This document shows, piece after piece, positions 3,154-23,570 of a stretch of 64,000 nt of DNA. The stretch comes from Chitinophagaceae bacterium DXS (GTDB lineage: Bacteria; Bacteroidota; Bacteroidia; Chitinophagales; Chitinophagaceae). The notes under the pieces were generated by a model. The model had not been told where the DNA came from, searched no databases, and saw only the letters and a list, made by a program, of their open reading frames with translations. Where the stretch lies: contig CP128386.1 in assembly GCA_030345135.1 (NCBI GenBank), positions 4,222,667-4,286,666 of the forward strand, read 5' to 3'. The position numbers and the translations under genes were made by a program. How positions within the stretch are numbered: the stretch's first letter is position 1; each line of letters opens with the position of its first letter.

Positions 3154-3613
3154 CCACTTACTTTTAATATTTCAAAAACAGAAGAAACCTTAAAGCCTGT
3201 TACGGACGTTAAGGTTTCTCAGCTCAATTAGTTTATTATGCAAAGTACGTTACAAGTACGAAGTTAGAAGTACGAAGTACGTTAGGTTTGAACCTGTTGT
3301 GTTTTAATTAACAGCTTGCCGCCAAAGTACTTCATATTCACCTATCTTACTCAAAGTACGAAGTTAGAAGTACGAAGTACGTTAGGATTGAACCTGTTGT
3401 GTTTTAATTAACAGCTTCTGATAAAGCACTTCATGTTCATCTATCTTACTCAAGTACAAAGTTAGAAGTACGAAGTACGTTGAGTGCGGCAGGTTTCTTT
3501 GAACTTAACATTTCTTGTTGCCAGCTACTATAGTCAACCTTTAACAACTCTATCAACAGTTCCGAACGAGGTACTTCGTAATTCGTAATTCGTACTTATC
3601 CACTTATCCTTAC
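3154..3613. repeat. Non-coding spacer with ~100-bp tandem repeats and inverted AAGTACG arrays
   Basis: Two and a half tandem copies start at about 3254, 3354 and 3452. Each opens with AAGTACGAAGTTAGAAGTAC and continues through AACCTGTTGTGTTTTAATTA and a CTATCTTACTC end. The spacing is 100 and then 98 bases. At 3567-3600 the same words reappear inverted (TACTTCGTAATTCGTAATTC), immediately downstream of the DUF1015 stop codon. No gene is seen. Confidence 0.85.
3183..3219 (-). terminator. Hairpin upstream of the TPR gene, terminator-like
   Basis: A perfect 11-bp inverted repeat (AGAAACCTTAA / TTAAGGTTTCT, 15-base loop) is followed on the minus strand by TCTGTTTTTG. It lies 30 bases before the TPR start, so it could end transcription from the DUF1015 side or act as an attenuator. 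Confidence 0.55.
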
Positions 3614-21430: not shown

Positions 21431-21643
21431 ATGAATCTGCTAAAAAGAATATTGGGCGTTGTATGGATGCTTATTGGTCCTGCAGCTATTGCTTTTTTGA
21501 TTTATGAAGCCATTCAGAAAATAAGCGCCAATCCAAGCCAGGATGTTTACCTGCCGTGGATTATCATCATTACCATCTTTGCACCTATTGCAGTAGGATT
21601 TGTGATTTTTGGGTATTACTCGTTGAATGGGGAATACGAGTAA
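21431..21643 (+). CDS. Small two-helix membrane protein
   Basis: 70 residues from the ATG at 21431 (a frame opening at 21404 adds nine unlikely residues). Two hydrophobic segments, about 8-25 (GVVWMLIGPAAIAFLIYE) and about 44-64 (WIIIITIFAPIAVGFVIFGYY), are joined by a short polar loop. It lies 100 bases after the MFS transporter, and I believe similar small proteins often accompany this transporter in Bacteroidota (possibly DUF6814), which suggests an accessory subunit. The function is unknown. Its TAA stop opens a long repeat region. Confidence 0.7.
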   Translation: MNLLKRILGVVWMLIGPAAIAFLIYEAIQKISANPSQDVYLPWIIIITIFAPIAVGFVIFGYYSLNGEYE

Positions 21644-22334
21644 GATGTGAGATGTACGGTGTACGATGTACGATGTGAGAGGCCGGATGTAATGACGCGT
21701 GTTGGATGTGAAATCAAGTACGAAGTACGATTTACGAAGTACGCGGGTGTTGCTGGTTTACAAATCACTTGCCGGCTGATAGCTGACAGCTGCAAGTACG
21801 AAGTACAATTTACGAAGTACGTAGGTGTTACAGGTTTCGAAATCAGATGCAGACTCATGTTCTTTAGCTAATAGCTGAATGCTGATAGCTGATAGCTGCA
21901 GGTACAATTTATGAAGTAATCACTGTTATGGGTTTGTCAATCACATTGCTGCCTGATGACAAATGGCAAATAACTGATTGCTGACAGCTGATAGCTCATA
22001 GCTCATAACTGCAAGTACGATTTATGAAGTAATCAGCTGTTATGGATTGTCAATCACATTGCTGCCTGATGGCAAATGGCAAATAGCTGATTGCTGACAG
22101 CTGATAGCTCATAGCTCATAACTGCAAGTACGATTTATGAAGTAATCAGCTGTTATGAATTTGTCAATCACATTGCTGCCCGATGACAAATGACAAATAG
22201 CTGATTGCTGACAGCTGATAGCTAATAGCTCATAGCCGTTAGCCGTTTGTCATAATTTTATTGAGCGGCTTGTTGATGCAAGTCAATTGTTGTAATTTCA
22301 AAGCAACTTATTTAGGAAGAATATACCGCCGATT
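21644..22334. repeat. Tandem repeat array (five units, 113-bp period in the last three) with word arrays
   Basis: The region opens with GATGTACGGTGTACGATGTA words. Five tandem units start at about 21715, 21793, 21899, 22012 and 22125. The last three are exactly 113 bases apart and nearly identical. Each unit begins CAAGTACGA(..)TTTA(T/C)GAAGTA, passes through TTGTCAATCACATTGCTGCC (units 3-5), and ends in GCTGACAGCTGATAGCTCAT-type words. Units 1 and 2 are shorter and more diverged. No coding frame conserved across units is seen. Confidence 0.92.
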
Positions 22335-23570
22335 GTGCAACACACCTTTAGATCTATACAAACTATTTTGCTCCGGCTTAAACTACTATTAATCTGCATT
22401 GCCTGCTATTCTCCGTACGGTTGGTCGCAGCAGAAACAATATCCAGGCATGCCGCCTCTTCCGGCAATCAAGCTTTCTACAATTCCTTTTTACCAGATAA
22501 CCGGCGGCATTATCATTGTTACGGCAGTATTAGACGACTATAAAGATTCGCTGAACTTTGTGCTGGATACTGGTAGCGGAGGCATCTCGCTTGATTCTAC
22601 AACCTGCGCTTATCTTGGTGTAAAAAAACAACTGAGTGAAAAAACCGTGCGCGGCATTGCGGGAATGAAAACCGTTGAATTTGCATACAATCACACGCTC
22701 CAAATAAGTAATCTGAAGGTTGACAGCCTGGATTTTCACATCAACAATTATGATCTTTTATCGAGCACTTATGGGGTTAAGATTGATGGCATCATCGGCT
22801 ATAGTTTTCTGCGGAGATATATTGTTGAAATTGATTACGACAAATTTCAACTGAATGTCTTTTTACAGGGTGCATACAAATATCCTAAAGGCGGATATAT
22901 GTTGCGGCCATCATTCGGTACAATACCTATTCAAAACGTCTATGTCAAAGACAATAACAGTGTTGATACGCGTTACTACTTCGATACCGGCGCGGGCCTT
23001 TGCATGCTCTTTTGCAATGACCTGGTTAAGGACAATGAACTGTTTAAACGTAAGCGAAAATTTTACGCAACGCAGGCGGAAGGTTTGGGCGGAAAAAAAA
23101 CAATGGATCTTACCGTTATAAGAAAGGTCAAAATCGGTCCGTACAGCTTTAAGAATGTGCCGGTTTATGTTTTTGATGATGAGTTTAATATTACCTCCTA
23201 CCCCATGCTTGGCGGTTTAATCGGCAATGATATTTTGCGCCGCTTTAATGTAACGCTCAACTATGCGGAAAGGGAAATTCATCTGAAGCCCAATAAGCAT
23301 TATACTGATTCTTTTGACTATTCCTATTCAGGGATGAGTGTTTACCTGATCAATGGGGAGATAACGATTGCTGATATTGTAAAAGGTTCACCTGCAGAAC
23401 AGGCAGGACTGGAAAACGGCGACATCCTGGTATCTGTTGAAAATAACGTTACAGGAAACATACAGCAGTACAAAACAATGCTGCAAAACGCCGGCACAAA
23501 ACTGAACCTCATTATCCGGAGAAATGGCGATTTGCTTACCAAACGGATTAAGGTAAAAAGTGTTTTATAA
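22335..23570 (+). CDS. Retropepsin-like aspartic protease with C-terminal PDZ domain, exported
   Basis: 411 residues starting at GTG; no ATG gives the hydrophobic leader (about 10-32, LLRLKLLLICIACYSPYGWS). Two aspartic-protease half-sites are present, FVLDTGSGG with Asp78 and YFDTGAGLC with Asp217. The two lobes are thus fused in one chain, unlike single-lobe dimeric retropepsins. A PDZ domain covers about 335-405 (GSPAEQAGLENGDILVSVEN). It is probably a periplasmic or lipid-linked protease; its substrate is unknown. The gene lies directly downstream of the 113-bp tandem array, which may affect its expression. Confidence 0.85.
   Translation: MQHTFRSIQTILLRLKLLLICIACYSPYGWSQQKQYPGMPPLPAIKLSTIPFYQITGGIIIVTAVLDDYKDSLNFVLDTGSGGISLDSTTCAYLGVKKQLSEKTVRGIAGMKTVEFAYNHTLQISNLKVDSLDFHINNYDLLSSTYGVKIDGIIGYSFLRRYIVEIDYDKFQLNVFLQGAYKYPKGGYMLRPSFGTIPIQNVYVKDNNSVDTRYYFDTGAGLCMLFCNDLVKDNELFKRKRKFYATQAEGLGGKKTMDLTVIRKVKIGPYSFKNVPVYVFDDEFNITSYPMLGGLIGNDILRRFNVTLNYAEREIHLKPNKHYTDSFDYSYSGMSVYLINGEITIADIVKGSPAEQAGLENGDILVSVENNVTGNIQQYKTMLQNAGTKLNLIIRRNGDLLTKRIKVKSVL

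Follow-up and report, generated by a model that had tools for sequence, protein, structure and literature searches.

A 113-bp tandem array as a probable minisatellite within a dispersed class of heptad-word repeats at Chitinophagaceae stop codons

The tandem array upstream of an aspartyl protease gene in a Chitinophagaceae genome (G000; a single contig of 7.29 Mb) is best read as a minisatellite that has grown inside a dispersed, lineage-specific class of heptad-hairpin repeats, a reading to which we give a probability of roughly 0.6. Within this unusual class, the array itself is ordinary. Its words, with their 7-bp period, form the arms of inverted pairs in intergenic regions, a relationship that the original prediction had not seen. 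Positions below are those of the window, the whole 64-kb stretch analysed (C1:4222667-4286666 of G000), unless a locus is named.

Results

Structure of the array

By sequence reading, five head-to-tail units span positions 21714-22238 (Table 1), confirming the five units originally described. The last three are spaced exactly 113 bp apart and are near-identical, with pairwise identities of 95.5, 93.8 and 91.1%. The first two are shorter (80 and 106 bp) and diverged, with 66-76% identity to the remaining units. Tandem Repeats Finder (TRF), named as a check in the original prediction, reports a period of 113 with 3.2 copies at 21873-22234, 92% matches and a score of 605. With this score and the identities among units 3-5, the head-to-tail copies are above chance, as in a minisatellite, a kind of tandem repeat with units of 10-500 bp.

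Each unit opens with AAGTAC/AGGTAC words and closes with GCTGATAGCT words, and both word families (GTACGAA and GCTGATA) form 7-bp-periodic tracts. The cores of units 1 and 2 resemble GGTGNRRCAGG, a motif recurrent just inside tracts. The RNA fold of the 113-bp unit is moderate (z = -2.4), and the entire spacer gives z = -3.5. To the first description we add one more tract, of GTACGAT type, at 21635-21684. There are no Rfam matches in the 64-kb window, and a similarity check for a phage or plasmid origin of the repeats found no similar DNA.

Composite arrays of heptad words also occur at other loci (5.2 copies of 108 bp, 7.9 copies of 131 bp and 3.5 copies of 108 bp), with a few more in the sampled stretches. 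These arrays and the recent tandem copies in units 3-5 support the earlier proposal that composites of genome-wide words are built and then amplified. The copy number of the array might be an assembly artefact, as it was read from the assembled sequence alone. However, units 3-5 differ mutually by 5-10 substitutions, the genome is a single contig and comparable arrays are present at other loci, so the chance of such an artefact is negligible. Variation of the copy number among strains is plausible. A 190-bp tandem array of 8.5 copies at L029:15196-16825 is not made of heptads.

Table 1. Features of the array, its surroundings and a related unit in the window.
Feature	Position	Strand	Basis
DUF6814 gene (70 aa), upstream neighbour of the array; stop codon 21641-21643	21431..21643	+	Pfam PF20664, E=7e-31
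GTACGAT/GTGAGAT heptad tract adjoining the DUF6814 stop codon	21635..21684	+	Lag-7 scan
Unit 1 (80 bp)	21714..21793	+	GTACGAA words, GGTGTTGCTGG core, GCTGATA words
Unit 2 (106 bp)	21794..21899	+	GTACGAA words, TAGGTGTTACAGG core, GCTGATA words
Unit 3 (113 bp)	21900..22012	+	TRF, pairwise identity
Unit 4 (113 bp)	22013..22125	+	TRF, pairwise identity; RNA fold z = -2.4
Unit 5 (113 bp), final copy, end diverging	22126..22238	+	TRF, pairwise identity
Promoter-proximal segment common to the Foetidibacter luteolus ortholog (ATTGTTGTAATTTCA...CTTATTTA..GAAGAAT), outside the array	22284..22323	+	Comparison by eye
Downstream neighbour of the array: aspartyl protease carrying a C-terminal PDZ domain	22335..23570	+	Pfam PF13650, PF13975, PF17820
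Same-class unit elsewhere in the window: three GTACGAA tracts ~100 bp apart, then inverted TTCGTAC arm at 3562-3604	3249..3604	.	Lag-7 tract scan

Relation to the protease gene

The DUF6814 gene that precedes the array sits downstream of an MFS transporter gene. The protease gene that follows was the specific partner suggested for the array, and this tie is unsupported. Foetidibacter luteolus is the nearest named relative via the protease, with 71% protein identity. The region directly upstream of its ortholog contains neither a heptad tract nor an array, and it matches the promoter-proximal segment at 22284-22323. From this comparison, the array looks like later material placed upstream of an older promoter-proximal segment. 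Its position before the protease gene and its direct repeats could be taken as a set of regulatory binding sites dedicated to the protease. This is very unlikely, since identical words occur in many unrelated intergenic regions, the Foetidibacter ortholog does without them and the array stops about 45 bp short of the shared segment.

Heptad tracts across the genome

A sample of 41 G000 stretches (864 kb) contains 262 noncoding heptad tracts, 12.1 kb in all, which extrapolates to ~2,200 tracts per genome. In 464 kb of this genome, 170 lag-7 tracts were found in noncoding DNA, compared with 40 at lag 8 and 6-13 for lags 5, 6, 9, 10, 11 and 13. The tracts are 4-6 heptads long; most positions in the heptad are near-fixed and one to three are variable. 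Nearly all tracts fall into about ten word families (GTACGAA, AGCTATC, AATTGAA, AAGTCAA, GTTGTAC, AGTGAAT, AAGCCTA, AGGTATC, GTACGAT and minor ones).

That the array units join two word families common elsewhere was borne out by these data. The AGCT pattern AGCTRANAGCTRANAGCTRA has 282 matches in G000, where the reversed pattern used as a control has none; each of 293 further genomes from the family gives 0-25. Some Chitinophagaceae genomes use different words in the same architecture, and many have little or none of it. In one relative, G074, the reversed control has 73 matches, which are TCGA-centred heptads and indicate a different lexicon.

Anchoring at stop codons

The anchoring of tracts at stop codons is the most interesting part of the finding. 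In G000, 51% of stop edges are abutted by tracts, versus 16% expected under uniform placement. The abutment was replicated in G021 (52 versus 27%) and in other genomes (56 versus 22%). The stop codon often begins the first word, as in TAG-CTATCAG, TAA-GTTGTAAG and TGA-GGTATCAG. Neutral insertion alone does not explain such precise abutment. Start edges are abutted near expectation, with no clear excess, a weak comparison because the genes were called with a simple ORF caller that gives exact stop positions and inexact starts. Regions bearing tracts are commonest between convergent genes (34 of 73) and rarest between divergent ones (18 of 92), with 83 of 269 between co-directional genes.

Tracts were also seen at individual start codons. 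AGCT heptads stand directly before the apparent rpsB start codon in two congeners (L136:9607-9634 and L138:8887-8936), and a similar tract is nearly unchanged at another start codon (L135:7008 and L137:7030). It is possible that these tracts are a functional 5' leader. In G034, which belongs to a different family of the order, the whole spacer between two convergent stop codons is taken up by a heptad tract of GGTTAGTGGTTAGTGG and then CATAACTCATAACTCA (L100:12506-12616).

Inverted pairs and their folding

The tracts are strongly polarized. At 137 of 142 intergenic edges with a tract, the word lies on one strand at the left edge and as its reverse complement at the right. The family labels had been assigned by hand after inspection, and therefore free labels were allowed in the permutation control: sides were shuffled and the best label was picked for each family, which gave a mean of 85 and a maximum of 100 over 2,000 permutations. 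Of 60 pairs of consecutive +,- tracts within 600 bp, 33 are matched in family (11.7% by chance), whereas for consecutive -,+ tracts, which span genes, the figure is 6 of 59. Hence each unit consists of two inverted tracts that share an intergenic region. The idea of a gene cassette, with arms flanking genes, was rejected, as agreement in family across genes is just at chance.

In G021 the inverted arrangement of the pairs is clear, their loops are short in most cases and several pairs match closely. Two G021 hairpins have RNA folds of z = -12.7 and -11.1. G000 pairs gave z = -7.3 and -6.2, and a third -0.5. Stem covariation was absent in G000, where 19 pairs are no more complementary than same-family arms elsewhere (p = 0.98).

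These properties raise the question of whether the tracts are selected RNA hairpins at the stop codon, acting in transcription termination or mRNA 3'-end protection, with the array as a multiplied version. Such a role would agree with the abutment at stop rather than start codons, the inverted pairing inside intergenic regions, the strong G021 folds and the bias towards convergent genes. However, sites resembling intrinsic terminators are about as frequent with as without a stop-codon tract (16 versus 15% in co-directional and 16 versus 18% in convergent regions), the G000 pairs do not covary, the spacers turn over between congeners and the comparison with start codons is weak. We therefore consider selected hairpins an unlikely explanation. 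Replacement of terminators by tracts was rejected on the same frequencies.

Turnover between congeners and possible mobility

In the congener G132, the spacers orthologous to those of four G021 hairpins lack them. In G253, the hairpin of one spacer is missing from three congeners and the words of a second from the two anchorable congeners; at a third, different heptad words occupy this gene boundary in the congeners. The differences between spacers indicate that turnover is fast, with gain in one lineage indistinguishable from loss in the other at any single site. The congeners compared are ~70-75% identical. Spacers without hairpins are present among them, and junctions and target-site duplication are unreadable at that identity.

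The heptad arms could be the terminal inverted repeats of classical MITEs moved by a transposase encoded elsewhere. Consistent with this, the two arms of a pair often belong to one family, and hairpins are missing from a congener's orthologous spacers. A weak motif, GGTGNRRCAGG, lies next to the arms on the inner side in 19 of 246 cases and on the outer side in 1 of 246 (random 1.3%), and two G021 hairpins 4 kb apart have a nearly identical 33-bp loop. These are partial exceptions, however, as the interiors of different loci showed no matches save short A-family stretches and are mostly unrelated, which is not what a copied mobile element predicts. One single same-family +,- pair encloses a predicted gene, so that no autonomous element was seen, and no target-site duplication was resolved between congeners of this divergence. 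Classical MITEs thus appear quite improbable. The G021 loop was rejected as a genome-wide mobile core, as just two copies were found in the 420 kb sampled.

The seven PF01797 matches in G000 raise the alternative of REPIN-like repeats moved by RAYT, a Y1 transposase. None of these genes is closely flanked by heptad tracts, save for one weak tract ~0.9 kb off, and hairpins of a different type (GTCCTACGGAC) accompany at least one RAYT-type gene. A RAYT/REPIN origin is extremely unlikely and was rejected, since the seven matches lack the expected flanking repeats. On either side of a RAYT-type Y1 transposase at L167 (G000:C1:6529743-6530087) lie hairpins of a family of its own, GTCCTACGGACAA / GCCCTACGGGCAA.

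Discussion

In the minisatellite that we favour, one intergenic unit of 7-bp words would have been duplicated head to tail, producing first the older, now diverged units 1 and 2 and then the near-exact 113-bp copies. The repeated words may have served as sites of unequal exchange or slippage, giving rise to the tandem duplication. The heptads themselves probably grow by slippage, and the class may spread by copying within the genome. The inverted pairs have the potential to form hairpins, and their outer arm frequently starts at a stop codon or immediately behind it. Against this reading count the mostly unrelated interiors of the pairs, the lack of a resolved target-site duplication junction, the precise stop abutment and the absence of extra complementarity between G000 arms, although the family matching of paired arms is strong.

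The tracts are probably noncoding sequences that are largely tolerated and not specific regulators of neighbouring genes. Arrays of this kind should not be taken as promoter elements of whichever gene follows. A broader proposal, which we put forward tentatively, is that the heptad-word hairpins are an undescribed repeat class added at Chitinophagaceae stop codons with a genome-specific lexicon. The hairpins would be the work of a copying enzyme or would be favoured by a heptad-binding protein or an RNA process, with the 113-bp array as a by-product. Heptanucleotide repeats have long been noted as a favoured bacterial simple repeat, without an agreed cause. The organisation here is strict: the tracts are paired, inverted and anchored at stop codons, and the lexicon varies from species to species and is replaced among members of one genus. 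This strictness makes the origin of heptad repeats testable in close strains and by term-seq.

Several known systems share some of these features. Cyanobacterial STRR repeats are tandem copies of one heptanucleotide word. DNA uptake sequences have one fixed word per lineage and form inverted pairs downstream of genes. We know of no heptad period in REPs. Among repeats of 5-11 nt, heptanucleotides are the commonest class in the majority of surveyed genomes, as cited in PMC4679880, and heptanucleotide long simple sequence repeats (LSSR), with slippage as the proposed cause, are described there as tandem copies of one word (Mrazek et al. 2007, via PMC4679880). The heptad tracts have the same 7-bp noncoding periodicity as LSSR/STRR repeats; unlike them, their units are not near-identical, one to three heptad positions vary at set places and the tracts pair across a spacer.

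TAACTGA and other heptamers are likewise 7-bp intergenic direct repeats, known from several lineages including Bacteroidetes (MacGregor 2015, PMC4679880). A few Bacteroidetes have long arrays of them that are missing from close relatives with shorter spacers (PMC4679880). However, a single invariant heptamer is repeated there in direct orientation, and in the genome at the centre of that study it mostly stands immediately before start codons (PMC4679880). The heptad tracts use about ten word families with variable positions, form inverted pairs and abut stop codons; a fixed TAACTGA word shortly before the start codon was not found, the words being others and the start edges showing no clear excess.

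BrickBuilt of Porphyromonas gingivalis (PMC4596501) is likewise an intergenic element of Bacteroidota in which a minisatellite lies within an inverted-repeat MITE. It differs in its 23-bp units, its leader and tail subunits and its 19 copies, compared with 7-bp words, ~2,200 tracts and unrelated interiors here. REPIN/RAYT palindromes are also dispersed intergenic inverted repeats, the REPs being 20-40 bp palindromes (PMC3733652), but the RAYT-type genes of G000 are not beside heptad tracts. DNA uptake sequences paired as terminators (PMC1852404, PMC2397512) are genome-wide short words that also form inverted pairs. Unlike these, the heptad tracts comprise many word families with heptad repetition. 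In the open-access literature, we found no published description of paired heptad arms anchored at stop codons.

Words of other periods accompany the heptads at some loci. Words with an 8-bp period (AATGTGCGAATGTGCAA) occur as inverted arms nested inside 7-bp arms at L012:16052-16445, L166:11696-12013 and L024:125-282; at L012 the 8-bp-period arms surround an apparent native terminator hairpin. Intergenic regions at L020:15332-15727, L161:8111-8478 and L022:13263-13543 contain further inverted word families whose period is longer (CCACAGAGNNCACAGAG type), with heptad tracts alongside in two cases.
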